This document shows, piece by piece, positions 23,439-61,563 of a DNA stretch of 64,000 bases. This stretch comes from Alitta virens. Lineage: Eukaryota; Annelida; Polychaeta; Phyllodocida; Nereididae. Numbering within the stretch: position 1 is the first letter of the stretch; each line of letters begins with the position of its first letter. The notes beneath the pieces were generated by a model. The model saw only the letters and a program-made list of their open reading frames with translations, had not been told where the DNA came from and searched no databases. The translations under genes were made by a program, and so were the position numbers. Location: positions 37,904,685 through 37,968,684 of the forward strand of contig OW028578.1 of NCBI GenBank assembly GCA_932294295.1, written 5' to 3'.

Positions 23439-23498
23439 AAATTTAGCATCTGTTGATAGGACAGTGCAAAATTTAGCATCTGTTGATAGGACAGTGCT
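23439..23498 (+). repeat. 30-bp tandem duplication in the LINE-A 5' region
   Basis: Two perfect adjacent copies of a 30-bp unit containing TTTAGCATCTGTTGATAGGA. They precede ORF1 by 56 bp and may be part of the LINE 5' untranslated region. Confidence 0.85.
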
Positions 23499-23554
23499 AA
23501 AACGCAGCTTTCATTCCTCTGAAGACCAATGCCAGGCAATAATTTCAGCAGATT

Positions 23555-24910
23555 ATGGTGCTAACGCGACAGGCAACTCATGCATCTGAAAATTCCACAC
23601 AAGAAGAAGCCACGACTCAAGAAAATAGCCAAGGATTGTACAAATGCCCTCTGGACACTTTGGATATCAATATGGCTACCCATGAAAACACCACTGCTCC
23701 AATGCAACAGCCAGAATGGTTCAAAGAGGTGAGAGAAAAACTCTCTAACATTGATATACTTGGCGATAAACTTGCAAATATCAGTAATAAGCTGGATGAA
23801 GTGAAGGATTCCGTAAACTTTGCATGTGAATCTGTTAAAAATGCAATTGAAAGAGCAAGCAATGCAGAAAAAATTTCAATTACACTGCAAAATGAAAATT
23901 CTCAACTCAAAAATGATATTGCTTCAATGCAAATTAGACTTGTTCAAATGGAGTGTCAATCATGTCGAGACAATTTTATATTTAATGGCATTACGGAAAA
24001 GATAGGCAAAGAGACGTGGGAAGATTGTGAGACTTCAGTAAAATATATTTTGTGCAAAACTTTGGGCATTAATGGTGCCCCTACCATTAAATTTGAACGT
24101 GTCCACAGATTAGGCCCAAAAAAAGCTGACAAAACAAGACCAATAATACCAAGATTTTCAAGCTTCAAAGACCGTGAATTGATATGGAAAAGCCGACATA
24201 AACTGTCAAAATCAAACTTTAGTATACTTGAGGATTACCCGGTTGAAATTCAAAATGAGCGCAAGCTGCTATTTCTAATCCTCAAGATGCTAAAAACTCT
24301 GGATCATGTTGAGTCTGCTTCATTGAAACTGGACAAACTGTACATAAATGGAAAGTGGTACACATCAAAAACACTCCACGAACTGCCTGCCAATCTCAAG
24401 GTGCAAACTTTATTCACCAGAAGTGAAAAGGGTGTAACTCTTTTCTGCTCCAAGTACTCACCTTTAAGTAACCTGTATTCTGAGGCAGAATTCACTATTG
24501 ATGGTGAGCACTACATTTCTACTGAACAATATATTCAGCACGCAAAAGCTACACTATTTCATGATGACCTTACTGCTGTCAAGATAAAAGCTGAAACTAA
24601 CCCCTACACAATAATGGGACTAGGCAAAATGGTGAAGGGCTTCAAGCCAGCTATATGGAAGAAAGATGTGCTTTCTGTCCTGAAGAAAGCATGCTCAGCT
24701 AAATTCCACCAGGTGGCCTTTGCTAGAGAGACCCTGTTGGCAACTAATAATGGCCTGATTGGAGAGGCTACTCTTGACAAAACCTATGGAATAGGGCTGC
24801 ACCTTACAGATGAAGCTGCCAAGGACCCTTCAAACTGGTTGGGAGAAAATACTTTTGGCAATATCCTGCAGGAAATTCGAAATGAACTGAAAAAACACTT
24901 TACCAAATGA
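23555..24910 (+). CDS. LINE-A ORF1 protein with C-terminal NADAR domain
   Basis: An intact 451-residue protein. Residues 1-55 are polar and probably disordered. Residues 55-135 are a coiled coil with heptad-like leucine and isoleucine. Residues 138-230 are an RRM-like region with RDNFIFNGI and RVHRLGP, as in L1-type ORF1 proteins, followed by a C-terminal subdomain to about 280. Residues 295-447 then match the NADAR (YbiA-like) superfamily motif by motif: SPLSNLY (302-308), TEQYIQHAKA (323-332), W368, KF (383-384), ETLLATNNGLIGEA (392-405), YGIGL (411-415), GENTFGNIL (430-438), R442. NADAR proteins act on ADP-ribose-type or N-glycosidic substrates. In a LINE the first parts should bind the RNA as a chaperone, and NADAR may remove ADP-ribose from nucleic acid or protein; that role is inference. 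The usual Trp of the WGIG motif is Tyr here. Confidence 0.88.
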   Translation: MVLTRQATHASENSTQEEATTQENSQGLYKCPLDTLDINMATHENTTAPMQQPEWFKEVREKLSNIDILGDKLANISNKLDEVKDSVNFACESVKNAIERASNAEKISITLQNENSQLKNDIASMQIRLVQMECQSCRDNFIFNGITEKIGKETWEDCETSVKYILCKTLGINGAPTIKFERVHRLGPKKADKTRPIIPRFSSFKDRELIWKSRHKLSKSNFSILEDYPVEIQNERKLLFLILKMLKTLDHVESASLKLDKLYINGKWYTSKTLHELPANLKVQTLFTRSEKGVTLFCSKYSPLSNLYSEAEFTIDGEHYISTEQYIQHAKATLFHDDLTAVKIKAETNPYTIMGLGKMVKGFKPAIWKKDVLSVLKKACSAKFHQVAFARETLLATNNGLIGEATLDKTYGIGLHLTDEAAKDPSNWLGENTFGNILQEIRNELKKHFTK

Positions 24911-25887
24911 TTTCTGTAATTTGGATTTCCCTCAAACATTGACCCCCCGATTACCATTTGAATTATTGTGTTATTTTTAATTGTATCAAATGTTTCAATT
25001 ACGTGTATCAGGTGATATTTTCACAATGTATTTATAAATATAATGTTGTGTATTATTGATGAGGAATAACTCTTAACACAGAGTATAGCTTGGCATAGAA
25101 AGGGTGGCTTTTAATCCAACATATAATGCAGTGTATGTCATGTAATGGTACAAGTATCAAGCTCAGCTACAGCTGGTAAACTGATTAAACTTAAGGTTAC
25201 ACAAGTATTTCAAAGCCCCTTTTTCCAGGGGTCAGTTTGCTATTGGTTCTCTCTACTCCAGTGCACATGTACATGGCCTGTTCTTATTGGCTTGTGCCTT
25301 GGGGTGGACAGTGGTCACTACCTCTTTTTCTGGTTCACTTATCTTTGTCTAAGTTTTAGACTTTAAATGCCTTAAAGCAGGCTTGCTTAAAGTTCTTATT
25401 AAAGTTCTCTTAGGTCATAGTTCAGTAATACATAATAGATTGATATTTTGTTACATTAATACATTTTGACTATATGACAATAAAACGCCTTTATTTAGAA
25501 AACACTCCAAAAAAGTTAGTGACCTGTCTACACTAGCAAAATATGTTATTCAGATTCAAATTTATGCTAGTATTGCATCCTCTAATCTATGTACATTATG
25601 AATCATATTTGGAAGTTTGTATTTTGCAGGGCAGAACTCTGCTGCCTACTTTGCTCTTTGAAGTAATATTGATAAGAATTCTTATTTTTATTTATTATTA
25701 ATCTGATAATTATAGCTATTTTTTTTTATTACTTTTGTTTTCTTCTTCTATGATGTATGCCACTAAATATTAAGGTTAATTGTTCACAAAGCAATCAAAT
25801 ACTCAGCCATGCTACTTCACTTTGTATTTTTAAGTTTCAGACAGATCCTTGCAGACCACTGCCAGCACTTGTATTTAAACCAGAAAT
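24911..25887 (+). other. LINE-A inter-ORF region
   Basis: 977 bp without supported coding sequence between ORF1 and ORF2. This is long for a LINE and almost three times the spacing in LINE-B (344 bp). ORF2 probably needs its own initiation mechanism, or the stretch holds an unnoticed insertion. Confidence 0.5.
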
Positions 25888-27983
25888 ATGGAATCCCCAC
25901 TTGATATTCTAAACACTGGAGATGGTGATGATGACAATAATCATGATGAGATGCCAAATCTTTTTACCCGTTCACCTTATTTTGATAATGCTTCTGCTAT
26001 AAAAGTTATGAAAAGTACAAATGGTTCACCTTCAATACTAAGTTTAAACTGTCAGTCGTTGCAATCTAAATTTGATCAACTACTAATATATCTACAATTA
26101 TTTGAAGATGCTAACTGTCCTTTCTCTATTATTTGTTTACAAGAAACTTGGTTAAAAGATAATTATGATGTGTCTCTTTTGCAGCTTGAAGGCTACAACT
26201 TCATCCATGCTACAAGCTCCTGCAGTTCACACGGTGGAGTTGCCATGTATATAAGAGATAACTTGGAATATAGAATCTTACATATAAATGGTGATAGAAC
26301 TATATGGGATGGTCTATTCATTGAAATTTTACTCGAAAATGAAGGAATTCAAAGAAAAATTATAATTGGAAATATATATAGACCCCCTAGAGATACTTCT
26401 GACAATTTTAGTACCTTCTTTAATGATATTGATGAACTACTTACCTCATTTCATAGAACAAATGATGTCATATTGGTGGGTGACTTCAACATTGACCTGT
26501 TAAAAATTTATCATAAACCTCAAGCTAAAGAATTTTTTGATATTGTACTAGCTAATAGTTTCCTACCTAAAGTTACCATGCCAACCAGACTAACTGATAC
26601 GAGTGGTACTCTTATTGATAACTGCTTTGTTAAAATTACAGAAAACATTTCAGAAACTACAGCAGGAATACTATATCATAATATCTCCGACCATCAGCCA
26701 TATTTCATATTATCAAACCACTTGACAACATCGCGAAATAACAGAAGGAAAATTAAAACATATTCTAATTCCTATGAGGCCATAAGTAACTTTAAAAATG
26801 AAATTCTACTTACCTGTGATACTCAAAACTTTGAAAACTCTACAAACACTGACCCAAATACAAATTATTATAAGTTAGATCAAATATTACAAAATGCACT
26901 AGATAATCATATGCCGAGTAGAATAATGAAGTATAACAAACATAAACACAAGAAAGGCTCATGGATTACTAAAGGTATAATTCGATCTATCAAATTCAGG
27001 GATAAACTTTATAAAACACTGAAGTCAACTGATATTAATTCCGAAAGATGTAACACATACAAAATAAACCTACAAACTTACAACCGCATACTAAAACAAA
27101 ATATACGTTTAGCAAAAAAGACATATTATCATTCTTGTTTTGAAAAAATTAAAAAAAGACATCAAGAATACATGGCTAACAATAAAGAATATTTTGAATA
27201 CACAACAAAATGTCAAAGAATTTCCTAAGTACTTTCTCATAGATAATATTAATGTTAATGACCCTAAATTAATTGCAAATAAATTTAACGATTACTTCAT
27301 AGAGATAGGTCCCACCCTAGCTGAATTCATAGGGCCACCAACTAGAAAATCATTTAATGACTATCTTATGAATCCAGTACACACTAACTTTGAATTTAAA
27401 GTGGTGACTGAAAAAAACTGTTAAAGAAATTATAGAAAACCTAAAACCTAAAACAAGCTGTGGGGTAGATAGATTATCCAATAAATTACTAAAATTTATA
27501 AAAGATGAAATAGCCAAACCATTAACCATGATCATTAATCAATCATTACAAACTGGTATATTCCCTGATAAATTAAAATTAGCCAAAGTTTTGCCCATAC
27601 ATAAGAAAAATGATGACAATATTCTGGATAATTATCGTCCAATATCAGTTCCTCCCACCATCTCTAAAGTATTAGAAAGAATAATGTATAATCAAATATA
27701 TAATCACTTCACTGAACTTAAACTTTTCTTAGACAGTCAATATGGTTTTAGGACTAAACATTCAACAGAACCTGCGGCACTTGAATTAATTGGTATAATA
27801 GTTGTTAAAATGGACCAAAATAAAATCCCTCTAAATATTTATCTAGATCTATCCAAAGCTTTCGACACCATAAATCATGAAATTCTTATATATAAATTAA
27901 AACATTATGGTATTATTGGAAACTCACTAAATCTACTTAAAAGTTATTTAACAAACCGTAAACAATATATTGAATTAGGATAA
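25888..27983 (+). pseudogene. LINE-A ORF2, 5' part: APE endonuclease and RT fingers/palm
   Basis: From the ATG at 25888 the frame encodes an APE-type endonuclease with LNCQSL, CLQETWL, HGGVAMYI, GDFNID and ISDHQPYF, all the metal-binding and catalytic motifs of the family. A frameshift at the A run 27151-27157 moves the reading to the +1 frame (KNTWLTI, KEFPKYFL). Another at the A run 27411-27417 moves it again to the RT region (NLKPKTSCGVD, NYRPIS, SQYGFR, LDLSKAFDTINHE). The reading meets a TAA at 27981-27983, and 17 bases later the TTAA transposon begins. Both frameshifts are single extra bases in homopolymers, so sequencing error cannot be excluded. The catalytic YADD lies on the other side of the insertion. 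Confidence 0.88.
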
Positions 27984-28171
27984 ACTATATCTAATTATCT
28001 TAAAGGTCACAGGCAATCACTTTCAAAGTAAGTTATAATATAGATAATGCTTAAAAATACACATGTGCGCAATTTGGGATTTTAATCTCAAATAAACACG
28101 TTATTATAAACAATTTAATAACGCTGCCCGCCTCGCCAACCTGCTTCACGGCAAAAGTAGGTCACGTGATT

Positions 28172-28293
28172 ATGTGTGACGTCATCGGTGTGATGGATCT
28201 GCCAGCTGTCTGTGTTGACAATAGTCAGTTCCACGTGTTTGACTGCAAATCCTGCTCAGAGAAGCTCAATTTCTTAGAAGACATAAACTGGAG
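28172..28293 (+). CDS. Possible exon inside the TTAA transposon (a)
   Basis: An ATG at 28172 opens 40 codons ending in CTGGAG/GTAAGT, a strong donor at 28294. The peptide contains CVDNSQFHVFDCKSCSEKL with a CxxC pair. GC content and codon use look more exon-like than the surroundings. The first codons overlap the subterminal inverted repeat. No family was recognised. Weak evidence; could be the first exon of a transposon-encoded or captured gene. Confidence 0.3.
28176..28207 (+). repeat. Left subterminal inverted repeat with CRE palindrome
   Basis: Contains TGACGTCA at 28177-28184 and matches the complement of 35167-35199 over about 32 bases. It lies 173 bp inside the left end of the transposon. 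Confidence 0.75.
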
Positions 28294-28487
28294 GTAAGTA
28301 ACCTACATAGATGATAATGCTCATGTATCAATGACAGTTGGGCCAGTTATTTGATGGCTTTTGATGTTTAGCGCTACCGGCCGAGCAGGCCTACCATCAT
28401 AATTTAAGCATTGACATTGCTATTATAAATGCCTATGACCAGTTGCTTTTGGCCTTTGTATTTGCTCCAATTAATTAACAGTACTAA

Positions 28488-28685
28488 ATGTACAATTGCT
28501 CAATTACAATTGGGTTATTGGAAGGCTACTTGAATGTCCATTGTAGAAGCCCGAGGTGTGAATTGCACTTAAAACTTGAGTCTTACTTGACACTTGTTGA
28601 GCAGTGTGGACAGTTTGACACCAAGTGCCAAGAATTGCAATTAAAAAAGATTGATTTTAAAATGGAGAAAATAAAGAGGCTTTAG
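28488..28685 (+). CDS. Possible exon inside the TTAA transposon (b)
   Basis: A 65-codon frame after an acceptor-like TTAATTAACAG (ending about 28481). It reads with an ordinary composition (RSPRCELHLKLESYLTLV) and ends in TAG. Its frame does not join simply to the donor at 28293. No homology recognised. Low support. Confidence 0.2.
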   Translation: MYNCSITIGLLEGYLNVHCRSPRCELHLKLESYLTLVEQCGQFDTKCQELQLKKIDFKMEKIKRL

Positions 28686-28723
28686 CTTTAAGTTGGTAGC
28701 ACTGGTTTATCAAAATGTCTGTT

Positions 28724-28982
28724 ACAATTTGTATATTATACATGACCTGTGACTTATTCTGCATGTGTGTGAATAAACATGTTTAAAAAATGATAATGTG
28801 GAACAAATTTTGAAGAACTTTGCAATTTAATTAGCTGCAATAGGACACTTGTCACTATCAATTAATTTTTTGTCAATTTTCTTAAAAGTGACATATATTT
28901 TTAAGAAAATTGACAAAAAACTGCAGAAATTGACAAAACATGCAGAATAAGTCACAGGTCATGGTGTATAATATACAAATTA
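28724..28982. repeat. Foldback (hairpin) element of 260 bp
   Basis: Outer arms TTTGTATATTATACA-CATGACCTGTGACTTATTCTGCA (28725-28763, with one small gap) and its complement (28940-28982) are nearly perfect. An inner palindrome, TTTTTTGTCAATTTTCTTAA with its complement, lies at 28866-28921. It is a MITE-like foldback nested in the TTAA transposon. Confidence 0.75.
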
Positions 28983-29136
28983 AAATACTGCAATAATTGG
29001 TAATTAAAATAATTTGTAAAAATTACTAGAGTTTAAATACATAACAGAACAAAAGAAAGTGAGTAAAGCAAAAAATGAACCTTAATTCCCCTTTGAGTTA
29101 AATATAGGTACAAAAAATTTGTCATGTTTGGTGGAA

Positions 29137-30140
29137 CATGGAGTCACTAGAGAAGGAGGAGAAAGCTAAGGTTTTATTGCATTCTATGTAAGTCGCGATG
29201 GTCTTTTAATGATGAGCATTTAATCTGGTGACTGTCTTTAAGACCCAAGCTGATAAACATTCCTGGGGTTTAAACCAAAATAACTGTGTAATGATTGGCC
29301 AAATAAAGTGGGAGGTTTCCAAAATTTTTATAAATGTGCTCTCATGTTTTTAACTAGATTGTATTCACAACATTGTTGTCCCAACTCATTCAAAAATCAA
29401 AAATGATTCAATAATACAACATATTGTATTATAAATAAAGAAGGAAGCTTTTTAAGGTATTGTTCGAACATTTTATGTATTTTCTATGATATGTCACATT
29501 ATATTAATATAATATATGTCTTGTCTGACATCCAAATGAAAATCAATAAATTTATAAATGAAAAATCATGAATTTATAAAAGCAAAGTTCAGCCTGATAG
29601 AAATGCGTTTTATTTGACAGACAATGAATTTCTAAATTAACATAACTCAGGCTGACATCGACCGACACAAATAAAATAAATATTGGCATGTAGCCAAAAA
29701 GTTGCTCTTTCCAAGCAGCAGTTAGGATATGACAAATAGAGCCAAGTAAAATACACCTAACGTTGTCATATTGCAGTTGTAATTTGCTTAAAATGCCTTA
29801 ATTAGCTTAATTCTGGGCGGATTTTCACAGGAAAACTAGTATTCCCTACTATGCGCACACAATGACTAAAATATTTTTGGGAAATCCTTACATTAAAAGT
29901 GAGGCTCTCAATGTCTGCTAGGACCCAAGATTTAAAAACCCCTCTGAAAGGGGTTTGGATTGGCTGCTGCAGCAGTCAGACAAACATAGGACATCAAAGA
30001 GGACTTGCATGAAATTAAATGGTCATTAATTCTACGGCTCTCTGGGCCTAATTAGCCTTGGAACTATTTTAAATGGCCATTAAAAATATGGATGCATGTG
30101 TGTGATAACAGAGCTTTCCCCTCCTTCTCTAGTGACTCCA
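29137..30140. repeat. Foldback of 1 kb with GAGTCACTAGAGAAGGAGG ends
   Basis: GGAGTCACTAGAGAAGGAGG near 29139 recurs inverted as CCTCCTTCTCTAGTGACTCC near 30119. The interior has no supported gene. Probably another nested inverted-repeat element. Confidence 0.6.
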
Positions 30141-30300
30141 TTGGTGGAATAATTTTAAGTTTATATTATAGCATAAGTAAATAATAAATTTTTATTTATT
30201 TTTAACAATGAACACATTTTTAGCAATATTAATTGTGAATTTTAATGCTTTTCTAAGTTCCAGATTTACTCATTCCCAATTCTAAATTATTTTTTCCAGC

Positions 30301-30487
30301 TGATTATGAAGCTCCACCTGTGGATACTTTGTTGCTCTCTGTAGATTGTCCTGATAAAGAAACCAAATATCCATCTAACAGAATGTCTGTTAGCCAAATG
30401 TCTCGTCAACAAACCCTCAGTGGTTTTTTCATTTTAACTTTTGGAAAATGTTATAGTGGTTACGAAAGAGCAAATAAAGAGTCTTAA
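30301..30487 (+). CDS. Possible terminal exon inside the TTAA transposon (c)
   Basis: After an acceptor-like TTATTTTTTCCAG (ending at 30300) one frame stays open for about 61 codons (DYEAPPVDTLLLSVDCPDKE at its start) and ends in TAA at 30485-30487. The composition looks coding. The phase does not match exon (a) directly, so a middle exon would be needed. No family recognised. Confidence 0.3.
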
Positions 30488-30659
30488 GTCTATATGATAT
30501 TTTTCTTTTTGTATTAAACAAAATATAAAACTTTTTAAAGGTTGTATAAAAATACCTTAAAGTAGGCACATCAAATACATATACACTGTAAAGCTAACTG
30601 GTAAACACATAATTATCCTGAAAGAGGAGATGCCTGGTGCAAGTCTTTAGGTCGCACCC

Positions 30660-30735
30660 TGTAGACAAAGGTAGACAACTTCTGCTATATGATGCTACCT
30701 GTCACTAAACGGAACTGTTTGGCTATAGCTGGCTA
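30660..30735 (+). repeat. Dispersed repeat, inverted copy at 38040-38105
   Basis: TATGATGCTACCTGTCACTA and TAGCTGGCT are shared in the same spacing with the opposite strand of 38040-38105. Confidence 0.65.
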
Positions 30736-30860
30736 CACTACAGAGCCAAAACAGTCTAAGCTAGGGCACTGCTTCTGGAATGTAGTGCTAATTAATAGGT
30801 AAAATTGCTGATAGCCCAGTACTGCATCCGCAGTGCCAATACTAACACCCAGATGAGTGC

Positions 30861-32760
30861 TTAAAGGTCATGGGCAATCAAAATCTAACATTGCTGTTGT
30901 GTAGTAGTAGCACAGACAACATACAGATGTTTCACTCCCATTTCCCGCCATTCAACTGACAGGTGCTGCCCTCTTTGGGCTGGTGTGGAGCAGGCAGGGC
31001 TGTTGTATCATTTGTATGTGATATACAAGCATGAAAACACTAAATCTTGCAAAAACATGTGATGAATATTACAAATTCTCCATAACCAGAGGTTAATAGA
31101 TTTAAAACACAGTTTCCAGCTGCACTGTATAGTCTGTAGCAGCACATAATAGTTATTTATCTGTCAAGTCAAGCATAAATCAGAGAGCAGAGGATCCAAG
31201 ATCAAAAGGCTGGCAGGGACTGTAGGGAATGTTTGTCAACCCCTAACATTTTCATTCAACCTCAGTTCACTCTAAACCATATAACCCTTGTAATATTTAC
31301 AACTTGTAGCAAACAAATTTAACCTAGTAGGTTATTCAGTCTGTCTTTCCTGAAGCAAGGATATGTTGAGACCAACAGTTCCAGCCTTGGAATTTATTGC
31401 TATTGATTTGTAACAATTTTGAAGTTGAAAGGATACAGATTTCCAAACTTGTTAGAGAAAATAAGATGAGTTTTTAGCTTTTGTTAATTGAAAAAACAAA
31501 TTATGTTGACTGTCCATTTCAAACTGTCAATCATACATGTGAACAATCTGAAATACAGTTTTCTTTTTAATTCTTCCCTTTCATTGAAAAGCAAAGAATT
31601 AATGTAAGAGTTAAATGATTAAAACTATTTTAATAGCAAAAATGAGCTATTTTTTAGACTAGACTCAGACTCTGTTTATTTGTCTTATATATGAGAGGTT
31701 CAACGTACTTTTTCTAAGCGCATTGGAGACCCCTCAAAAAGTTAATTGCTGGCCAGCGATACAAGAGACTTTATTGGAATACGTAAATAATTATATGCAT
31801 AATAATGATAATTTGAAAATATGGTATAATATATTTGCAAAAAGCACTACTGAGATAACCTTGTGAAAATTTAAGCATAAGGGGGATATTCTTATTTCTG
31901 ATAGTTGGTATAAAATCTGTCATGGGACTCTAAACTCAACATATGTATGTATATATATATATATATTATTTACCCATGAACATAATTTATTATGTGCAAT
32001 CTTTTTATTTTTCATAACTCTCATAATTTGAATTATTCTTTTTATCTTTCATAATTTTCATAATTTGAACCATTCAATATTAAATTTCTTACTATAATTG
32101 TATGTATATACTCTTCTACATCATGGCTTATCATAATAATAGAGCATCATTTACATTTCTGATCTGGATTTTAGAAATTATTAATTGTATGAGACATTCT
32201 TATGTATCTCCTGATCAACCCAAGAATATATTCTTGAATCTTGAATATATTGTATTTCCTAAAATAAAAAAGAGCCATTTCTTTAATGCACAGATTTAGA
32301 GCAGATATGTTCATAGTAACAAGTTCATCATGTATTTAGTATATGGTGGTTATATATTACATATGGCCGTTAACTCACTAATAGCAGCTCATTATGACTG
32401 TATTCTAAGGTGAATCAAAGGATGTATAACTTGTAGTTGTTTCACAGACTATATCAAGTTATTGTCAACCCAAGTGATAGTTCATGGATAATTATATCAT
32501 AATAATGTTGTGTATGCATATTTATGTTTAAATATTTTGAGCATAATTATTAATCCCCCCTCCCCCAGTGGTTGTGGTTGTCATACTTGATCATTGGTCA
32601 TGAATGACATGTAACAGCTGTATTTTGATATCTTTTCCCCATATATATTAACACCCTGCCTCAGCCTGCTCCACACCACCCACTAGATGTCGCTATCTAG
32701 GTCAGTGGCACTATAGGTTTCAATGGGAGTGAAACGTCTGTATGTTGTCTGTGGTAGTAG
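30861..32760. repeat. Nested inverted-repeat element with TTAAAGGTCA end
   Basis: The left end TTAAAGGTCATGGGCAATCA (30861) resembles the terminus of the host TTAA transposon. About 45 bp inside it, the block with ACAGACAACATACAGATGTT and, further in, GTGTGGAGCAGGCAGGG are repeated inverted at 32645-32757. The right terminus has no AGGTCA-type end, so it is truncated or rearranged. It looks like a related non-autonomous element inserted into the larger one. Confidence 0.6.
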
Positions 32761-33494
32761 TAGTAGTACAGGGAACTAAAAGCTCGAATATTAATATATT
32801 TGACTATTGTGAAGAGATATTAGCATTTATTTATACCAATTCCCCCAGTTACCAAAGCAAGGAAATTTAAAACTGCACAATGCGATGGTTGCTTAAATAT
32901 GAAAATATTTAGTTTGGCAGGTAATTAGGTGTAGGCCTATAACAAATCTCAGAACAATATTGTTGTTAAAGCATATTTAAATAAATTATGTATGGCTTAT
33001 ATGTAATTGTTTTTTTTTCCTTTAATTATGATTCTCAATACTATTAGGAGTATTAATAACTACATTTTCTGATATTTGGCAACATGATGTAAAACACAGT
33101 ATTATAATATAAACATCATTTGAGCATGTATCAAGCACTAAATTGCTACACTAATTTAATAAATATACTGAATTTCAATCAGACTATTTTCCTTGGTGAA
33201 TACATAAGAAAGAAATGCAAACCTCACAATTAAGACCTTGGTTAGAATAGACAGAGTATATATATATGCCATGAATATTCATTCACAGTATAAAGGCTAT
33301 CCATTTTCATTAGACCACAATGACAGTTAAAGATAGGGAAATTATGAATATAAAACAAATACATAAAGAAGATGCTCAGGAATATGCTGTAATTTTAAAA
33401 TGAACACTATTTAACTAATCTAATGTCTTCCTTCTAGACACCTGGAATTCATCATTTTACTGTTTAGCTAATAACATGACATTTAGTTTGCACT

Positions 33495-33690
33495 TCAGAA
33501 ACACTTTTTGCCTTGGCCTAAATCTTTGGCCTTGGCCTATATTCAGAAACTGCTCACTTTTTGCCTTGGCCTTCTCACCTGACTTTCTTTAACTAAAGAC
33601 ATTCGTCTTTAACTCACCTGAAGATGTTGGAGGAGTGCCAAACTTCAACTGGCAATTACTTGGCTTCTATACATGATAAAACAATGCGGT
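33495..33690 (+). repeat. Dispersed repeat, inverted copy of 2610-2795
   Basis: The opposite-strand partner is at 2610-2795. The unit with CCTTGGCC is partly duplicated within the copy. Confidence 0.7.
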
Positions 33691-33885
33691 TTTTTTCTAA
33701 ATAGTTCAATTGTAACTATCTTATCATCTATATCCCTTTAAAGCAACACAATAAAAAAAATACACTAATACCTTATTTTTTTGAGAAAGAAATGCTGATG
33801 ACAACCCTAAGGTTTATGTCACTGAATCTACAATTTGCAAATTATATTTAAGGTACAAGAATAAAACCACTGTCCGGTTGCCTAA

Positions 33886-34070
33886 ATGACTGACTAGTTG
33901 TCAGCTGGTATGTTATGTTGTGCTGACTGACTGACAGACAGACTGACATGACTGAACTGACTGACTGAACGGATGAGCTTAACTGACAGACATAATTGAC
34001 TGAGTTCAACAGACTGATTTAACTGACTGAACTGACTGAACCTGACTTGGCTGTACCGACTGATTTGGCT
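33886..34070 (+). repeat. ACTG-rich degenerate minisatellite
   Basis: Irregular tandem runs of CTGA/ACTG (for example GCTGACTGACTGACAGACAG) over about 185 bp. Confidence 0.75.
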
Positions 34071-35166
34071 GAATAAAATATGGCCAATTTGTTAATTAAT
34101 GTGTGCAGTTGAATTCCATATTTAAAAAATCCTTGCTTTTTCAAATTTTTTGTCAATAGTCTTACATGTTTTACTTGACCTTTGATAAAGAATTAAAAAA
34201 AAAATTATTAATAGATTCTATGTATACTTTTTTTTTTATATAGTTATTCTGCATTATGCCGAGGTAGGTTACGCACCATGAAACTGACCATACTTGTAAG
34301 AAAGTTCACACCCAGTTAATAAAAAAAGATATCTGGTGTTTTGTGAATGCCAGCAGCACTATAGGCCTACAATGTAAATATCTTAATATAGTATTATGAT
34401 TATACTATGGATCAGCACAAAATAGACAGAATCAAATATAATCAAACCCCAACTTGTAAGGTGATGAAAATAGGCTATTATTGTAATTTTAGTAAGTTGG
34501 CTGCTTTGTATATTGGTATCCAAAGTACTACATAATATACAAATCAACAACTGTCAAAAGTTCATTGAACCCAACAAAATTGAGCCGTGAATCATTTACA
34601 TGATCTACATGTTTTTAATAGATCTAGGCATGGTTTGCATTATTAGGTGCTTGGTAAACAATTACACTTGACTGGCTATTCAGTTAACAGTCGTTACAAT
34701 TAGTTGGTGTTTTGACTGGGCCCGCTCACATTAATTATCGTAATCATTTCAATGTGGTTATGTCACTGCAGGGGGCGGAGCTTAAGTTTGATTGAAATCG
34801 CTGTTTATTCATTAATCACGTGTGTTGTTTTAATAACTCTGCAAAAATACTTAATTTTTTGTGAATTTCCCTTTACTTCATGTTAAAATCTTTGACCTTA
34901 AAATGATTTAAATTAGAAAAAATTAAGTCTAAGACCCCAACTCTGAATGTGATCTAAAGAAAAAAAAAAAGTGTTTCTGTTGTGAACCTATTTCTAGGCC
35001 TTCTGAGCACTTCTGTAGACCTAGGCTTGTCATATATATATTAAAATTAAATATATAGGCCTCTATAATCTCTAATATATCTACAATAAATGAATATATC
35101 TATGTAACCTAATTGCCCTATATACCATGCCTATGTTACTGGGCCCCATACGCCTGCAGATTGTTT

Positions 35167-35199
35167 AGCTGCCGGATCAAATCACATCGATGACGTCAC
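35167..35199 (-). repeat. Right subterminal inverted repeat with CRE palindrome
   Basis: Contains TGACGTCA at 35191-35198, 203 bp inside the right end of the transposon. It is the complement of 28176-28207 with few mismatches. Confidence 0.75.
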
Positions 35200-35405
35200 G
35201 ATTAGCACCTGGTGGGCATCAGCAGAAACACTGCAAATAATGGCGTTCATGATGGCGATGCGCCGCAGGTGTGAAAAACAAGCATTGAGATGAGATAACG
35301 GCGGTTTTCCACATTTTTTGTCATGCAGAGGACAAGGTATGTTCCGGCTGAACTGATATTCCCAATTTCAGAGGAATCACGAAGTTTATTGCCTGTGACC
35401 TTTAA

Positions 35406-36300
35406 TATAACGACAGAAGTTCCACAAGGCTCGATCTTAGGCCCTTTACTTTTTATGATTTATTTAAATGATTTAGTTAATGCAACAGACAAATTTTATC
35501 CAATAGTATATGCAGATGACACTGCCCTCTCTACAACACTAAATGCTTTTAACTCCTTAAATGTAAATGCTGAAGTAGAAATAAATCAAGAACTTAATAA
35601 CATAAATGATTGGTTTAAGCTTAATAAACTCTCTTTAAATCTAAATAAAACAAAGGCGATGTACTTTCACTTTCCAAATAAAGTTGTAAGACCTATGAAC
35701 TTAAAAATTGACAATACTGACATTGAATTTGTCACTCATTTTAATTATTTAGGTATCATAATTGACACACATCTGTCGTGGAAGTCACACACCAATATGA
35801 TATCCCAGAAAATAGCAAAAACAATTGGTATAACGTGTAAAATGAAAAAGTTTGTCCCTTCAATTATTTTACAAACAATATATAGTTCACTAATAACTCC
35901 TTATTTAAATTATGGAATTTTAACATGGGGCACTCAAGCATCAAAATTATGCAAGTTACAAAAAAAGGGCTGTCAGAATTATTTCAAACTTAAAATATAA
36001 TGCCCATACCGACCCACTTTTCAAAAAATTTAATGTTCTGAAGGTAACAGATCTGTGTGCTCTGCAGGAACTCAAGTTTGCCTTCAAGCTGGAAAACGGA
36101 ACTCTTCCATCTTATTTCACAAATTCTATGTACCAAAGACACTCTGAAATTCACTAATATGAAACCAGAAATGCAAATAATTTGGTCACCCCACAGAGTA
36201 AGCATTATTTCACAAACAAAAGTATAAGATTTCGTTTGCCCAATATATATAATAATTGTCCAGCTAATATAAAGAATGAAATTACACACATAGTTTCCAT
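35406..36300 (+). pseudogene. LINE-A ORF2, 3' part: RT palm, thumb and C-terminus
   Basis: Starts directly at the right TTAA with the segment containing VPQGSILGPL, then the catalytic YADD at 35509-35520, the LSLNLNKTKAM region and YLGIIIDTHLSWKSH. A single extra base near 35966 (AAAAAAGGG) shifts the frame. The reading continues as AVRIISNLKYNAHTDPLFKK to about 36300, with one in-frame TAG at 36156-36158. The ATG at 35323, upstream of the junction, lies in transposon sequence and is not a real start. Closely related to LINE-C. Inactive as it stands. Confidence 0.88.
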
Positions 36301-36690
36301 AGCTTTGTAAATTACATCAAATTCAATTAGCAAGTATGTATCAAACACTTTGCTCTGTAAGAAACTGTTATATATGCCATTCCTCTTAATCAACTGTGAC
36401 ATACACATATATATATATATATATATACTTAAGTGTAATCTTCAAAGTGGCGTCTCATTATGATATACAGTGTCTCTCATTGCCTTCTCCAAACTAAATA
36501 TTTAATCTTATCATAAATAAATTTATTTAAAATACTAAAATCTGTCTGGTAGGGTCTGCTGGGATCGGGATGAAGAATATTCTGGTGGCACCCCGGTAGC
36601 GATAAGAAAGTATCTTAGGGGTGTCTCCACCTGTATATACCGTTTGTATATGTATAGGAAATAAAATGAGTCTGAGTCTGAGTCTGAGTC
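36301..36690 (+). other. LINE-A 3' untranslated region, stem-loop and TGAGTC tail
   Basis: GGTGGCACCCC (36584) pairs with GGGGTGTCTCCACC (36618-36631), forming a stem-loop. AATAAAATGAGTC follows, and the element ends in four TGAGTC units. This is the usual 3' anatomy of CR1/L2-like LINEs, where the stem-loop and short repeat are recognised by the RT. Confidence 0.7.
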
Positions 36691-37092
36691 AGTGGGTTTT
36701 CCATTTTAAGCCAGCGAAAATTTAAAGCTTCACGGAAGTTGTGCCACTTGTACTTGACAAACTGGAAACAGAGCACAATTAAGAAAACAAATTTCATTAA
36801 AAATCATGGTGGTAATGAAAGGATTTAAGTGCGTTTCAAACTGTTTCCATTAAATTTAACTTGAAAATAAGTGTTGGGAAATGAATTATCGCTTCTGTCG
36901 GAATCATTTATTATTGTCGATTAACACCATTTTGGTTTAAGCGGCTTAGAATATGAGAAGCATGCGGAATACCTACATGACATGACAATGGCTGCCTGGA
37001 ATAGAGAATGGATTCCAAATTAAGACAAATTACCAAATTAAGACAGTTGCTAATGGACAAATCTTTAATTTCAAGGTAATGTATAGTATCAC
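36691..37092. other. Gene-free stretch right of LINE-A
   Basis: Nothing recognised. Confidence 0.4.
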
Positions 37093-37360: not shown

Positions 37361-38513
37361 TCTTAGAACAGTTTGTCTGTTTCAGACAATCAATAGTTTC
37401 ACTGGTGTCCTTCCAAACTTTGGTTTAAAATAAGCCAACATATAGTTTGTCCTTATAAGAAAATTATTGTAGATAGCAACAATTATGTTTGTTAGCTTGC
37501 ACGTTCAATGTCTAAGTAAGACAATCCTTTTTGTTTAAAACAGACAATTATTTCTGAGAGCATAATGTCTCAGGACGACTAATTGGTCTGTATCTTAATC
37601 AGCTCATTCAAAAAATCATGTCGTCAATTTTATTATTATAATTTTTTTGTAATGGCTTATTATAGCACAGCTACATATCTTACCAATGAAATTGTCTAGG
37701 AATAATAGTTATTCTCTGTTGTCAACATATTTACTCTTTACCTTGAATAAATGCATTTTATCAATCAATCAATTAATCAGTCAGTCAATCAATATAATTA
37801 CGCCTCCTTAAGCCCTTGTCCTTAAGCCCTTGTCCTTAAGCCCCCACCTTTACCAGCGAAGATAACCTGCTTGACAACATACAGTTAGTTTAATAACATA
37901 TGGTGGACTCTAGCTGCTTCTGTCTACTCCTAGCTTATGGTCAGCTTACAAATACCACCATTGAAAAAATATAAATGTTGGTGAATGTAAGAAACTAATA
38001 TATCATAAAATATGTACTTTTAGATCCGGCTTTATTAGCCAGCTACAGTCAGACAGTTCTGTTTAGTGGCAGGTAGCATCATATGGCGGAAGTTGTTTAG
38101 GTTTTATTTGACAGTCCGTTTTCAATGAAACTTACTGTGCTTTGCTTTTCACATTGGGTTTGCTTCAACATTTGGAAACAGAATAGCTCATTTTAAATTA
38201 GATTCCATTAAATACGGGGGGGGGGGGGGATGCCAAATGGTTAAAGATGCCTAAAATATAAAGTGACTCATCGGTTCTAAGTCAGTAATAATCTTACTTA
38301 TCAAAGAAGTCATTAAGCATCTTTGAAGTAACTTAAAATCCCAAAGTAACTTAAGAATTATTTGGAGGTTTACAAAATGTGTCCCCATTAATGGACTCCT
38401 TCCAATCGTTCGTAAAGTTTTGGGTTTTGCTGCTGAAGTTTGATTATTAGATTAAAGAAATTAATATAAAGGCTCTGGAAATGTTCTACATGTACTTGTA
38501 CTCATCAAATTTG
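37361..38513. other. Gene-free stretch
   Basis: Includes a CCTTAAGCCCTTGT direct repeat (37809-37848), the dispersed repeat at 38040-38105 and a G tract near 38216-38229. Confidence 0.45.
38040..38105 (-). repeat. Dispersed repeat, inverted copy of 30660-30735
   Basis: Shares ATGATGCTACCTG and TAGCTGGCT on the opposite strand with the segment inside the TTAA transposon. Confidence 0.65.
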
Positions 38514-39239
38514 AGATAGATAGAAGATAGATATATAGATAGATAGATAGGTAGGTAAGTAGATAGGTAGGTAGATAGGTATACATACAAATGGTGCATA
38601 GTTAGATAGATAGATAGATAGGTAGGTATACATAGATATGTATATGTAGATAGAAGATAGATAGATAGATAGGTTGGTAAGTAAATAGGTAGGAAGATAG
38701 GTATACATAGATATGTATACGTAGAAAGATAGATAGATAGATAGATAGATAGGTAGATAGATAGGTAGGTATACATAGATATGTATATGTAGATGAAGAT
38801 AGATAGATAGATAGGTTGGTAAGTAGATAGGTAGGTAGATAGGTATACATAGAAAGGGTGCATAGATCGATAGATAGATAGATAGATGGATAGGTAGGTA
38901 AGTAGATAGGTCGGTAGATAGGTATACATAGATATGTATACGTAGATAGATAGATAGATACATACATACATAGACAGATAGACAGATAGATAGATAAACA
39001 GATAGAAAGATAGATCGATAGAGAGATAGATAGACAGATAGACAGATAGGTAGGTAGGTAGATAGGTAGATAGATAGGTAGATAGATAGGTAAAAGTAGA
39101 TAGATAGATATATAGATAGATAGATAAACAGACAGGCAGACAGAGAGACAGACAGGCATACAGATAGACAGACAGATAGATAGGCAGATAGGCAGATAGA
39201 CAGATAGACATATAGATAGATAGATAGATAGATAGATAT
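38514..39239 (+). repeat. GATA-type compound microsatellite with higher-order structure
   Basis: About 725 bp of GATA/GGTA/CAGA tetranucleotide repeats. In the left two thirds a longer unit recurs, ATACATAGATATGTATA(C/T)G separated by GATA and GGTA runs, near 38629, 38703, 38771 and 38926. The right third is GATA/CAGA without that unit. The long open frames on the minus strand (Ser-Ile-Tyr-Leu repeats) are artefacts of the repeat. Confidence 0.95.
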
Positions 39240-40423
39240 GTTGTTCACGTCAGCCACATAAATCCACCTGAATTGGCCGGAATGGAATGAGCTATTTGAG
39301 TTCTTAGAACTTTCAAGCATTTGAAGCTAATGCTTAGGCACAATGGTTGCCCATCAAGAAAGGACCTACAGTTGTCTGTTTTTCTTTCAAAAAGAGACAT
39401 TGTGATGACGGCCTGAATGCAACTTTCTAGCTCCACTTAGACTGTCTGCCAAATGATAAAAGACACAATTAGACCTGTGTTGTGTATCCATCAGTTTGAC
39501 AATCTGACATTTGTATCACTTCAGAAAAGAAGGTGAACAGGAAAAGAAGAAACAGTTTTCACAGCTAGAACTAGAATCTTACAAAACAGTTCAAATGACC
39601 TAGGTAGATTTCCTAGTGGTCATTGGGTTCCAATGATGATCACTGTATATCAGATCAGTGATCATCTATCACTATACAGTATGTTAAAAATGTATGCGCA
39701 CTGTACACCCTAGAGCGACATCAGTATACTCTTGAATAATTTTAAAAATGTCCGTTTATTTGGCTTTTTTTTAATATTTAATTTTACGGAATGTAGTGTT
39801 TGTCTTTGTAGACTAAGATAGCATTCCAAATCGTTTCAATGTTAAGGTAGGTAGGTAGATAGGTAGGTACCTATATCTTAATCAGTTAATTAAAGGTAGG
39901 TACCTAGACATATCAACAATATAAAGCTACCCGCTGTGAGACATGAATTTGCCAGACACTGTATATCCTATACCTATCCTAAAACGTTAAACAATATGCC
40001 AAGTATTTTTAAAGAAACAAATTAACACACATAGCTTCCACTGTTTTAAATTATATGTGAAAAAGAAGGCAGTTGAGGCTTATATTGATGATTGCAATAT
40101 ACAAATTGTTACTCATGCCAATTTAATAGGCCTACAAATCAAAATAGCTTGTCATAATCTTCTACTCTTACGCAAATTTCATTTTATTACATTACATTTG
40201 TAACTGTATACTCTTCCCTAAAGCGGCATGTCATTAAGCCTTTGGGAAGAGTAGCTTTATTCAATAAACAATAAACAATCCATAATCAGGTAATTATAGG
40301 TAGGTACCTATATCTTAATAAGTTGACTTATTATCTTAATTGTAAAATAGATCTGACTCTATCACATAGATACCTACCTGTCTACCTACCTATCTATACC
40401 TATAGATAACATTTTTCTATCTA

Positions 40424-56851: not shown

Positions 56852-58207
56852 ATGATGGAAGTTACAAATTCTCATGAGCAGAGTGCAAACAAAGATGGTA
56901 CTGAGTCACGAAAGAGACAGTTGTCTGACAATGTGGAGCCAACTGGAGTATCTCCAGAGGCTAAGAAGCCAGTTATGGTTGACAGAATGAGTTTGAAGAT
57001 GCCAGATGATGATGCTCTTCCATTAGATTGGTTTAAAGCTCTCTTTGCTCAGATGGAGACCATGTGTGAACATTATGAAGAATTTAAACAGTCCCTTGAA
57101 TTTAACCAAAATGAATTGGCTGATTGTAAAAAAATGGTTAGTAACATTTCAAAAGAAACATGTGCTTTGAAAACTGAGTTGAGCTTCCTTAAGTGTGAAA
57201 ATCAAGACCTTAAGGTACAGTACACTGCCTTGGCTGAAAAACAAATAAAAACTGAAATCCACTTAAGAGAAAAAAACCTGATTTTTGAAGGGATTATAGA
57301 AACATATGATGAAGATTCAGCCATGTTGTATGGCAAAGTTGTTCGAGCACTTAACAACATAAAGGCATTCAATGGCAATGCAGAACGAGTGTTTATTGGT
57401 AAAGTCCACAGGGTTGGTCCATACATCAAGGGACAGATGCGTCCAGTGGTTTGTCACTTTATCAGGGATAATGACATTCAGTTTATCATGAAGAACAGAT
57501 CCCAGTTACCCCAGAATATTTTTGTACATGATGATTTCCCCCCAGAGATCGATAATAGGAGACGTATCCTTCGCCCAATTTTCAATAAGGCCAAAGCAAT
57601 GGACAATTATAAAGGGAAATGCAGACTAGTCCAGGACAAGTTTATTATACATGGCAAAGCCTTTACTGTGGAACCAATAAACAATTTACATCAATTGCCT
57701 CCTGAACTGCATCCAAGATCTGCTGCAGAAAAGCAAAATGATGACGTTATTGTGTTTTTTACTAAAGGCTCACCCTTTAGTAATTTTCATTTCTCTCCAT
57801 TTGTTAAAGAAAACACAAAGTACTGTTGTAATGAACAATAAATACAGGCCAAAAAAGCTAAACTGTTCAACGATGACTTGTCGCAGTCAAAAATCATGAA
57901 AAGTATGGATCCGTACGTAATCAAGAGACTTGGCAGAGCGGTAAACAATTTTGTACAACAGAAATGGGAGCGAGTAGCAAAGCAAATTGCACTGGATGGT
58001 TGTCTTGCGAAGTTCACTCAAAACAAAGAACTGTTGGATGCTCTGTTAAAGACTGGTTCTAAAACCATTGGTGAAGCATCGAAAGACTCTTTTTGGGGTA
58101 TAGGCAAATCTCTGGATGATCCCAGTGTTTTTGACTCACATGCATGGCCTGGTGAAAACTTGCTGGGAAATGTATTGACCTATGTCCGTGAACAATTAAA
58201 AGATTGA
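56852..58207 (+). pseudogene. LINE-B ORF1 with NADAR domain, one nonsense codon
   Basis: One frame of 451 codons, the same length as LINE-A ORF1, with a single TAA at codon 330 (57839-57841). Residues 1-55 are polar and basic; 60-135 are a coiled coil; 138-230 are an RRM-like region with EKNLIFEGI and KVHRVGP; a C-terminal subdomain runs to about 285. The NADAR domain follows: SPFSNF (307-312), EQ-stop-IQAKKAKLF around codon 330 (Tyr is usual at the stop), a Trp in KWERVAKQ, LAKF, LLKTGSKTIGEA, WGIG, GENLLGNVL and a final VREQL. The stop removes most of the NADAR domain unless read through; one base change from a Tyr codon explains it. Sequence identity with LINE-A ORF1 is low, so the fusion is old in LINEs of this genome. 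Confidence 0.85.
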
Positions 58208-58551
58208 TTACACAATGCAAAGCCCTAAAGAAAATTGACTGGTATATTTTACATTGTCCTTATGCATAGTTTATTAATATTGCAAGGAAATTTGTCCAGA
58301 AAACTGGTCATTAATCTTGCCCAACTGATTAATGACTTTTTTTTTGATTTTTTTTTTTTTGTTTTTTTGTTTTTTTCTTTTGTTGTAAACATGAAGAAGC
58401 CTATATATATGATTTGGTTGTTGACTATGGTTATTTTTGTTACATTTGTTACATTCATGCACCTTTGGGTGTTTTATGTGGATTGCACAATGCTGAGGTT
58501 TCATAATATGCATAGTTGGTTTATTGATATTGATTTTCAAAACATTAATAC
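58208..58551 (+). other. LINE-B inter-ORF region with ATGA overlap
   Basis: A T-rich tract (58328-58385) and a small frame that from the ATG at 58391 encodes a single hydrophobic segment. It ends in TGA overlapping the ORF2 start as ATGA (58552-58555). Such overlaps permit reinitiation in some LINEs. Whether the small frame is translated is unknown. Confidence 0.4.
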
Positions 58552-61500
58552 ATGACTGACTTGAATAGCCTTGAAAATGATGAAAAATTTAATTTTGCAA
58601 AGTTAATAGATGTAGAGGATGCATTATATACTGACTGCACATACTTGAATTTAGATGACAATTGTGATTATCCTGAAACAGGAAGTTCCTTTACTGTAGC
58701 TCATTTTAATATTCATAGTATCCCAAATAAGTATGATGACTTCCTTGGATTATTAGACAAATTAAAGGGTAAATGCATATTACCAAATGTAATTTTACTC
58801 TGTGAAACTTTTCTCAATGTAAATAATTTTGACAGATTTAATTTTCACAATTATGACCTCCTCAGTGAATACAGAAAAAATAAATCAAAAGGAGGTGTTT
58901 CGATAATGGTAAAGTCTGATCTGAAATATTATGTAAGGAATGATCTTGTTATTTTTCATGAACTATAACTTGAATCAATTTTTATTGAAGTACCATGGAA
59001 TAATAAGCCAAATATTGTAATAGGTGAAATATACAGGGTTCCTGGTACTAATGAGACTGAGTTTTTGACTACATATGAAAATGTAATAATCAAGATTAAG
59101 AATGAACACAAGAGAGTAATTATTGGTACAGATCAAAATTTAGACTACCTAAAAATAAATATGCACAATAAAACCATGGAATTTTTTGATATGAATATGT
59201 CATATAATCTGATGCCAGTAATATATAAACCAACACGTGTGACCCATTCTACAGCTACGCTGATAGATAACATTTATATTGATGTTGAAATATGTCATAA
59301 TGTGAGGTCTCATATTGTAGTAACTGATATTTCTGATCACTTTTTATGTATAGCCACAATCAAGGATAATAGTATTGCACACAAATTTGCTAAAATATTC
59401 ACAACTAGGAAAATTAATGATGGTGTTATTCGTAATGTCAGGGGTGCACTGTACAATAAGGACTGGTCCTATCTTGAACAGTTTTCTATAAATGAAGCAA
59501 CTGATGTTCTTAACAAAGAGATTAATGAAGTGATTGAGCATTATGCTCCCTTGAAAACAGTGAATCTAGGTAAAACAAACAAACACAGTGAATTGCCTTG
59601 TCCATGGTTTACAACAGGATTAAGAACTTCAAGTGTGAAATGTTATAAGTTGTTCAAAAAAGTATTACATAAACCACGTGACAGTCCAGAATATAAACTC
59701 TATAGAGAATATAGAAATATGTATAATATATTAAGGAGAAAGGCAAAATTTAGATATTATAATGAGATAATCTCTGATACACAAAGAGACTCCAAAAAGT
59801 TGTGGGCAACATTGAACAGAATTACGGGAAAGATAAGAAATAAGAAGGATATTAGTGAGGAAATAATTGTAAATGGTATTAAAGAAACAGATGAGAAAAC
59901 AATTAGCAATGCTTTCGCCAAATACTACAGTGAAATAGGTAAAAAATTGTCAGAAAACTTAAGCCATGAAGGTGGCTCTGGTGATCCATATTCAAACATT
60001 ACAGAGAGAGTTAATTCAAATAGCTTTTTATTTCCAACAACCCAGAATGAAATAGAAAAGATAATTAAGAATTTAAAATCTAAAAACAGTAAAGGGTATG
60101 ACAATGTATCAAATAATATTCTTAAAGGTATATATCCCAGTATTCTTAAAGCATTGTGGATTATATTTAATAAGTCTTTAATATCTGGTGAATTTCCAAA
60201 TAGTATGAAATTAGCTATTATTAGACCACTATATAAAACAAAAGACATTTATGAAATTTGTAATTACAGGCCAATATCACTACTACCAGTAATTTCAAAA
60301 ATTTTAGAAAAATTAATTAGCAATAGATTAGTAAAATTTTTCACAAAGCATAAAATTCTATACGAGGGGCAATATGGGTTTAGGAGACAAAGAAATACAA
60401 CAGATGCTATTATGGATTTAACTGGTAACATATTACATAGTTTTAATAAGGGAATGTTTACAATAGGAATATTTTTAGATATGACTAAGGCTTTTGATAG
60501 TATTAAACACGAAACATTATTATATAAATTACAGAATTATGGCATTAGAGGTACAGTTTTCAATTGGTTAAAAAGTTATTTAAGTAATAGGAAACTGCAA
60601 GTAAAATTTAAAAATACCCTTTCAGATCAGTACACAGTTGATTTTGGTATTCCACAGGGCTCTGTATTAGGCCCTTTATTGTATATTGTCCTTGCAAATG
60701 ATTTGATCAAATGTTTAAAATTTTGTTCCTGTGTATCATTTGCAGATGACACAACAGTTTTTGCATCAGGTAGAAATATTAAATTCCTATTTAAAAAAGT
60801 AAATGAAGATCTTAAAAGATTAAATTTATGGTTCGTAAGTAATTCCTTATCCCTTAATGTAGAAAAGTCTAATTATATCTTGTTCAGAATGAAAAGTAAG
60901 AAAATAAATTGTAACAACAAGATTGAGATTGGGGGCAAAGAAATAAGGAATGTTAGAGATACAAAATTTTTGGGGGTAGTTATTGATGAAAATCTTGACT
61001 GGAACAGCCATGTTAAACATATGTTATCTAAACTGACTGCAGGAATTCACAGTTTAAATATGGTAAAAAATATTGTTCCTTTTTATTTAAAGCGCATAAT
61101 ATATTTAGCAAATATACAGAGTCATTTGAATTATGCCGTGTGTGTTTGGGGATCTATGTTAACTTCAAGTAATCGAAATAAAGTAAAAGTAAAGCAAAAT
61201 CATGCAATTAGAGCCATTTTTAATCTCAATAGAAGAACATCTGTGAAACCATTTATAAAAAAGGCCAGACTATTGAATTTTGAAGATTTGATGAATTTGT
61301 CACTTTTAAATATTTCATATAGATATGTAAATGATTATCTCCCACTTCGTATTACTAATTTATATGAGATACAAACACATGATCGAATTACTCGCAATAG
61401 AAACTCACTGCTTACACCTGTTCACAGTTTAGAAATATATAATAAAAGTTTTTTGGGTAGAGCACCTCATCTTTGGTTACATTTATCAAATACTCTAAAA

Positions 61501-61563
61501 TCAGCTAAAACTAAAAAACTGTTTTCTAAAACTTACACACATTCTTGTATAAGTTCCTACTAA
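58552..61563 (+). pseudogene. LINE-B ORF2: APE endonuclease and reverse transcriptase, one nonsense codon
   Basis: A frame of 1,003 codons with one TAA at codon 139 (58966-58968), inside the endonuclease. Endonuclease motifs: HFNIHS, LCETFL, GGVSI, GTDQN (the D-x-N of the usual GDFN is kept) and ISDHF. RT motifs: KSKNSKGYDNVSNN, NYRPISLLP, YGFRRQ, LDMTKAFDSI, IPQGSVLGPL, FADDTTVF (FADD at 60739-60750) and LGVVIDENLDWNSH. The rest continues to a normal C-terminus. The stop fits a single C-to-T change in CAA. Except for the two stops in ORF1 and ORF2 the element looks intact, so it is a young copy. The family differs clearly from LINE-A and LINE-C. Confidence 0.9.

Follow-up and report, generated by a model that had tools for sequence, protein, structure and literature searches.

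Two LINEs in the 64,000-nucleotide stretch of Alitta virens DNA analysed here (the window) carry a NADAR domain in their ORF1. These are two-ORF LINEs, in which a Type II ORF1 bears a C-terminal NADAR of the YbiA kind and lies upstream of an endonuclease-RT ORF2; we regard this anatomy as practically certain. For the role of the domain we favour, at a probability of about 0.5, that the ORF1-borne NADAR would remove ADP-ribose from guanines of the element RNA, the cDNA or the target site. The features are collected in Table 1.

Table 1. Features of the two NADAR-bearing LINEs, with positions counted in the window.
Feature	Position	Strand	Evidence
Element 1, 5' part: short 5' UTR and ORF1	23495..24947	+	5' end common to L041 (C14, 97.7%) and L042 (C3, 98.0%)
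Element 1 ORF1, 451 codons, open	23555..24910	+	Frame, Pfam
Predicted coiled-coil helix, residues 54-136	23714..23962	+	AlphaFold model; LINE-1 ORF1p profile match
RRM and CTD of an L1-type ORF1p (about residues 140-286; limits set by eye on the model)	23972..24412	+	2yko/2ldy profile matches; model
NADAR domain, residues 299-446; pocket E324, K331, W368, E404, D408	24449..24892	+	PF08719 E 6e-30; residue mapping
Insertion of about 610 bp, not in L041; L042 lacks the whole of 24941-26160	24948..25556		Alignment break
Element 1 ORF2, 5' part, frames broken	25557..28003	+	Endonuclease and RT matches
Element 1 endonuclease frame	25888-27228	+	PF03372 4e-12
Element 1 RT frame	27528-27983	+	PF00078 3.2e-17
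7.4-kb insertion with terminal inverted repeats, arms 27995-28024 and 35381-35410	28004..35401		Alignment break, terminal inverted repeats
Element 1 ORF2, 3' part (RT fragment), and 3' end with (TGAGTC)n tail	35402..36696	+	96.7% to L041 (to 36687), 94.2% to L042 (to 36696)
Element 2, second LINE with NADAR-ORF1; 98.5% to L036 (contig C1)	56419..61909	+	5' end 56419-56424 from L008, L012 and L015; 3' end from L036
Element 2 ORF1-NADAR, 451-codon frame, one in-frame stop	56852..58207	+	31% to element 1 ORF1 over 405 positions, E 1e-51
Element 2 NADAR domain	57758..58201	+	PF08719 E 4.1e-29 (3' piece alone); 4.4e-39 in L036
Element 2 ORF2 (endonuclease and RT), 1003-codon frame, one in-frame stop	58552..61563	+	Frame, domain matches

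The ORF1 frame of element 1 runs from ATG to stop with zero internal stops and encodes 451 amino acids. The initial annotation had read it as a LINE ORF1 fused to a complete NADAR in a single frame, and had proposed a Pfam search against PF08719 as a check. This search gave a significant match of residues 299-446 of the 451 to profile positions 8-163 of 163 (E 6e-30, 105.1 bits; cut-off 35.1 bits), and NCBIfam TIGR02464 was also matched over its cut-off (E 8.4e-29). In addition, a profile made from the ORF and 14 homologues matched the solved NADAR 8bau (8.6e-26) and YbiA 2b3w (3.8e-18), which confirms the fusion. The same profile matched LINE-1 ORF1p (2yko, 3e-8; 2ldy, 2.1e-6). In the AlphaFold model of the protein (15 sequences, mean pLDDT 83.8, pTM 0.64), residues 1-52 were predicted to be disordered and to be followed by a long helix (54-136), while pLDDT was near 90 in the RRM/CTD region and, in ten-residue blocks of the NADAR, 94-97 for residues 301-440 and 89 for residues 441-450. 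The L1-like ORF1 half with coiled coil and RRM, likewise part of the initial annotation, is thus borne out by the profile matches and the helix, which together give the Type II layout of LINE ORF1 (coiled coil, RRM, CTD). The full-length NADAR match places the domain in the YbiA subfamily of the NADAR superfamily.

The ORF1-NADAR layout was found in 14 of 17 homologous proteins (P0001-P0014, 35-87% identity). This count includes P0010, which is cut off within the NADAR and lacks a Pfam call, as well as P0006 and P0012, whose sequences start where the coiled coil ends or beyond it. With these proteins and many dispersed genomic copies, the fusion is far above chance. Protein P0016 is ORF1-like (coiled coil, RVHR motif) and has a precomputed PF01205, which we take to be UPF0029, where its relatives have NADAR; the C-terminal modules of these ORF1s may thus be exchangeable. 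Protein P0017, which is also ORF1-like, runs directly into an endonuclease-like start (VAWNINGL, by eye) and is possibly an ORF1-ORF2 fusion.

The plus-strand frame at 23555-24910 given in the initial annotation was correct, but its extent was not that of the element, which is much longer (23495-36696), and a further LINE with a NADAR-ORF1 occupies 56419-61909. The window copy of element 1 is split by two insertions that are missing from copies on two other contigs. L041 (contig C14) aligned at about 97-98% over 23495-24947, 25557-25966, 26043-28002 and 35402-36687, and L042 (contig C3) at 94-98% over 23495-24940, 26161-28003 and 35402-36696. The 5' end near 23495 is common to all three copies, as is a 3' tail of (TGAGTC)n. 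Because the alignments of L041 and L042 skip 24948-25556 and 28004-35401, these insertions are later than element 1. The 7.4-kb insertion is, to judge from its sequence, probably a DNA transposon; in the ORF list of the window, no ORF of 150 aa lies wholly within it. The open frame 35323-36000, which carries the RT fragment of element 1, starts within this insertion, and its RT fragment paired with the RT of L041 in the RT tree (support 100/100). An RT motif and a gap of 978 bp had raised the option that the ORF2 at 25888 belongs to an unrelated element; this was excluded, as L041 and L042 define one LINE with insertions.

The ORF2 of these elements combines an APE endonuclease with an RT and lies on the same strand downstream of ORF1, a linkage also found in L041, L042, L036 and L037. 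Moreover, the dispersed copies have a common 5' end and a short-repeat or A-rich 3' tail, as LINEs do. The search for target-site duplications gave one weak 7-bp candidate, in L041, and none that was convincing in L042 or in the two element-2 copies tried. The frame at 23555 could instead be a domesticated host gene outside any mobile element, since ORF1 of element 1 is open while its ORF2 is broken, and L035 encodes a 100% identical protein without an ORF2 within the 6 kb examined. However, the identity to L035 (23207-25401, 99.86%) starts upstream of the element 5' end at 23495 and therefore reflects a segmental duplication, and copies at 94-96% were found on C3, C10, C13 and C14, with an ORF2 in L041 and L042. 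A host gene is thereby largely refuted and retains hardly any credibility.

One copy of element 2, L009, begins later than the border in Table 1, at 56559. In L036 the ORF1 and ORF2 frames are both open, and therefore intact copies of the element 2 family exist. A further occurrence of each element lies on C6 (37.93-38.12 Mb), about 99 kb past element 1 (L035) and about 112 kb past element 2 (L007); the identity extends beyond the 5' ends of the elements, which marks a segmental duplication. Elsewhere in the window, a long simple repeat of the SIYLS type (38486-39320) is open in three overlapping minus-strand frames, and two further minus-strand frames resemble, by eye, a leucine-rich-repeat protein (7920-9665) and a seven-helix receptor (48272-49408).

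A first look at the genome (671 Mb, 23 contigs) gave 762 NADAR candidates. All 150 of these that were scored passed the Pfam cut-off, and 66 of the 150 matches lie in open frames of at least 380 codons with no stop inside the match (counted from the table of matches). Each of the 30 best loci yielded a NADAR row; in 26 of them the best ORF1 match reaches upstream of the NADAR (by only about 30 residues in L031), and in the other four (L020, L023, L024 and L030) it covers the NADAR only or nearly so. ORF1 relatives of element 1 with 73-100% protein identity were located on C3, C6, C7, C9, C10, C13 and C14, among 95 matches listed and with 94 of 523 candidates scored. When matches to the RRM half that reach residue 270 or beyond were followed (n=99), 59 were succeeded by a NADAR match and 14 more ran at least 30 residues into the NADAR, so that at least 73 of the 99 continue into this domain. 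The remaining 26 had no NADAR in that search, and two of these have one in another search. Several RRM halves have no NADAR match in the lists compared, for instance five alike on C3 (43.7 and 49.1-49.6 Mb), and are possibly NADAR-less relatives. Groups of equal score, such as 11 NADAR matches at 93.4 bits, eight of them in 549-codon frames, suggest recent movement.

The genome holds two architectures. In the A-type (elements 1 and 2, L037), the order coiled coil-RRM-CTD-NADAR is combined with an RT of the kind found in the window. In the B-type (L038, L039 and L040), ORF1 is 549, 562 and 641 codons long, has a low-complexity N terminus, a NADAR in the middle of the protein and an esterase-like C terminus, and is adjoined by endonuclease/RT frames. 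PF13472 was matched in L038, L039 and L040 at 0.0013, 0.046 and 0.0044, respectively, which is under its cut-off, and is precomputed for the relative P0162. PF08719 is present in each of the 43 relatives listed for the L038 ORF1, in a search that scored only the 7999 candidates with the largest number of shared words. Against L1 ORF2p, in a comparison with no Tx1 reference, the B-type RT of L038 scored 92 bits and the A-type RTs of L036 and L037 scored 56 and 69 bits. In a ten-row RT tree, with few references, none of them a named CR1/Jockey one, and with long branches flagged, the A-type RTs and three other RT fragments of the window were split from L038, L1 and R2 at 97/95. Of these three fragments, those at 42759 and 1114 were placed among the RTs of the A-type, and the one at 35323 belongs to element 1 itself. 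The A-type RTs have the motif GxPQGSxLGPLLF, presumably Jockey/CR1-like.

To compare constraint, dN of the NADAR was set against dN of the rest of ORF1. It was lower in the NADAR in eight of eight between-family pairs, which reuse seven sequences and are not independent; dS between families was mostly saturated, and one of the eight pairs was close (0.612 versus 0.583). Within families (four pairs), dN/dS ranged from 0.09 to 0.87 in the NADAR and from 0.50 to 1.08 in the remainder of ORF1, where one pair gave no defined value. Such near-neutral values on few changes are as expected of dead copies, and because of them the constraint rests on the between-family comparison. A YbiA-like metabolic N-glycosidase riding as a passenger, with no part in transposition, would agree with the best NCBIfam match of the frame, a riboflavin-intermediate N-glycosidase. 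A passenger would, however, be expected to erode, whereas this NADAR stays in frame and, between families, evolves less rapidly than the remainder of ORF1, and we consider such a passenger very improbable.

In the sequence alignment with 8bau, E43, K50, W89, E125 and D130 of the P. nicotianae NADAR correspond to E324, K331, W368, E404 and D408 of element 1. Among the rows reaching each site, these are conserved in 15/15, 15/15, 14/14, 14/14 and 13/14, respectively; other ADPr contacts of the P. nicotianae protein differ (R93 to V372, D86 to P365, W133 to Y411). The last-strand Glu (E404) with the pocket E and K (E324, K331) is that of the YbiA subfamily. As E43, K50 and E125 have been tied to guanine-ADP-ribose hydrolysis (PMC11543638) and are present as E324, K331 and E404, catalysis by the element 1 NADAR is plausible. 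The combination E/K/E/W was read in 13 of 13 A-type proteins and in 34 of 37 A-type genome rows, which are partly redundant (L008 and L036 are the same place, as are L014 and element 2, and L035 duplicates element 1). In the other three rows, which seem to form one family, K is replaced by Q. Stand-alone NADARs, too, show this combination most often (99 of 120), and thus E/K/E/W alone does not point to a guanine-ADPr substrate. Rows with fewer than 80 filled columns were dropped from the pocket count.

In the search with the L038 ORF1, His replaced the last-strand Glu in 34 of 43 hits (17 E/K/H/W, 14 E/M/H/W and 3 E/C/H/W) and nine kept Glu. Hits P0170-P0180, the last 11, align to only 22-32% of the query and are possibly not of the B-type. 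These replacements, with M or C for the Lys in 17 of the 43, and the Q for the key Lys in one A-type family would be in line with a NADAR that now serves as a binding module for ADPr or RNA and does not require catalysis. Against this, the A-type E/K/E is otherwise invariant across families that share about 30-45% of residues, beyond what binding would seem to need, and we judge a pure binding module to be unlikely.

In a tree of 48 rows hand-picked from a set of 130, the 13 Glu-type (A) NADARs were placed away from the 10 His-type (B) ones. The A rows were separated from stand-alone and B rows at 99/94, and at 92/92 when phage-like rows were also kept out; support for B was 100/99. The A-type NADARs grouped with those of the IMG/VR contigs L001-L004 (99/94), which were called phage-like from the collection and by eye. 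As these contigs were fetched with an A-type pattern, their nearness is partly due to sampling. In a quick tree of all 130 rows, the fork with all 25 A rows also included four phage-like rows and one stand-alone row, and the B label needed five changes. Since an AU test did not reject A and B as one clade (p 0.139), independent capture by the two types is not established.

For phage NADARs, a catalytic role on small ADPr derivatives from host immunity, such as cyclic ADPr-type signals or RNA-repair by-products, has been argued (PMC9503650). The grouping of the A-type with the phage-like contigs would extend this role to the LINEs, if the pattern used to fetch those contigs is set aside. Fusion to an RNA-coating protein suggests a nucleic acid or RNP as substrate instead, and for animal RNA viruses the same source prefers macromolecular substrates (PMC9503650). 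We therefore think it rather unlikely that small derivatives are the substrate.

We prefer the removal of ADP-ribose from guanines. LINE-1 ORF1p trimerises and coats LINE RNA. If the ORF1-NADAR protein likewise formed trimers on element RNA, many NADAR copies would therefore be present per RNP. The NADAR would hydrolyse the N-glycosidic bond of guanine-ADP-ribose on bound RNA, nascent cDNA or the nicked target site, and the template would thus stay readable during target-primed reverse transcription. The likely opponent would be an ADP-ribosyltransferase of the host, either a guanine-specific enzyme like pierisin and CARP-1 or an RNA-directed one not yet described. This proposal is based on the hydrolysis of guanine-ADPr described for eukaryotic and stand-alone NADARs (PMC11543638, PMC11125620) and on the guanine-N2 ADP-ribosylating activity on DNA, of pierisin/CARP-1 type, described in six edible clams (PMC11209040). 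The PARP-type host defence named in the initial annotation is not the best-fitting opponent, as NADARs act on guanine-ADPr and its animal source is of the pierisin/CARP-1 type (PMC11209040).

The NADAR might also strip ADP-ribose from proteins. These could be ORF1p or, at the target site, host factors modified by PARPs. ZAP, a PARP-family protein, reportedly restricts human retrotransposition, and the fusion to ORF1 would place the enzyme at the RNP. The published NADAR activity is, however, on guanine-ADPr and riboflavin intermediates, with no protein substrate reported in the account of it in PMC11543638, and we rate a protein substrate as decidedly unlikely.

More tentatively, and with considerable doubt, we suggest that LINEs of this lineage may have captured different NADARs repeatedly (the Glu-type C-terminally in a Type II ORF1, the His-type within an esterase-like one), and that guanine ADP-ribosylation by the host is the restriction which such a module would counteract. 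If true, there would be an undescribed ADP-ribosylation-based defence against retrotransposons, with the shellfish CARP-1/pierisin-like enzymes as candidate effectors. To our knowledge, the production of guanine-ADP-ribosylating enzymes by clams has no settled explanation. PMC11125620 describes the roles of animal NADARs as open. Abundant and apparently recently active LINEs with a catalytic-looking NADAR would point to nucleic-acid ADP-ribosylation acting on retrotransposons, and their ORF1-NADARs are ready proteins for testing it as such a force.

The initial annotation knew of no description of the fusion. A NADAR has, however, been noted by Repbase query in the ORF1 of several Crassostrea gigas Tx1 LINEs, and also in Pol of Ectocarpus (brown-algal) Gypsy elements, with processing of RNA intermediates as the suggested role in retrotransposons (PMC12477816). 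The fusion is thus not wholly new, being known from one short mention of oyster elements. This was the sole mention of a LINE NADAR found in searches whose scope excluded most subscription journals and bioRxiv. As far as these searches reach, the new aspects are the combination of a Type II ORF1-NADAR and a non-L1-like RT, the abundance of such elements, the conserved pocket, the constraint and the second architecture in one genome.

The C. gigas elements share with those of the window a YbiA-family NADAR inside a LINE ORF1. They are called Tx1, with no ORF1 architecture given in that mention, whereas ORF1 is of Type II in the elements of the window and their RT is apart from L1 and R2 (97/95). 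The architecture of L038-L040, with its more L1-like RT, may be the published C. gigas kind (PMC12477816). The Ectocarpus Gypsy elements are likewise retrotransposons with a conserved YbiA-family NADAR (PMC12477816). Type II ORF1s of L1, CR1, L2 and R1 clade LINEs have the same order of coiled coil, RRM and CTD, and ORF1 modules shuffle in the CR1/L2 lineages; unlike those in the window, the ORF1 types described there are without NADAR, a word absent from the main text (PMC4120745). The P. nicotianae NADAR and E. coli YbiA resemble the element 1 domain in sequence profile, and E43, K50 and E125 of the former are conserved in it, but neither is fused to an ORF1 and some P. nicotianae ADPr contacts differ. 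The DarT1-associated NADAR antitoxins (PMC11543638) belong to the same superfamily and have a last-strand Asp and a DNA-recognition Lys (K115 in that of E. coli C7), whereas element 1 has Glu404 and Met354, the latter position being Lys in 3 of 14 aligned rows. Finally, positive-strand RNA viruses of animals carry a NADAR in another RNA-based animal parasite, there in a polyprotein and here in a retrotransposon ORF1 (PMC9503650).
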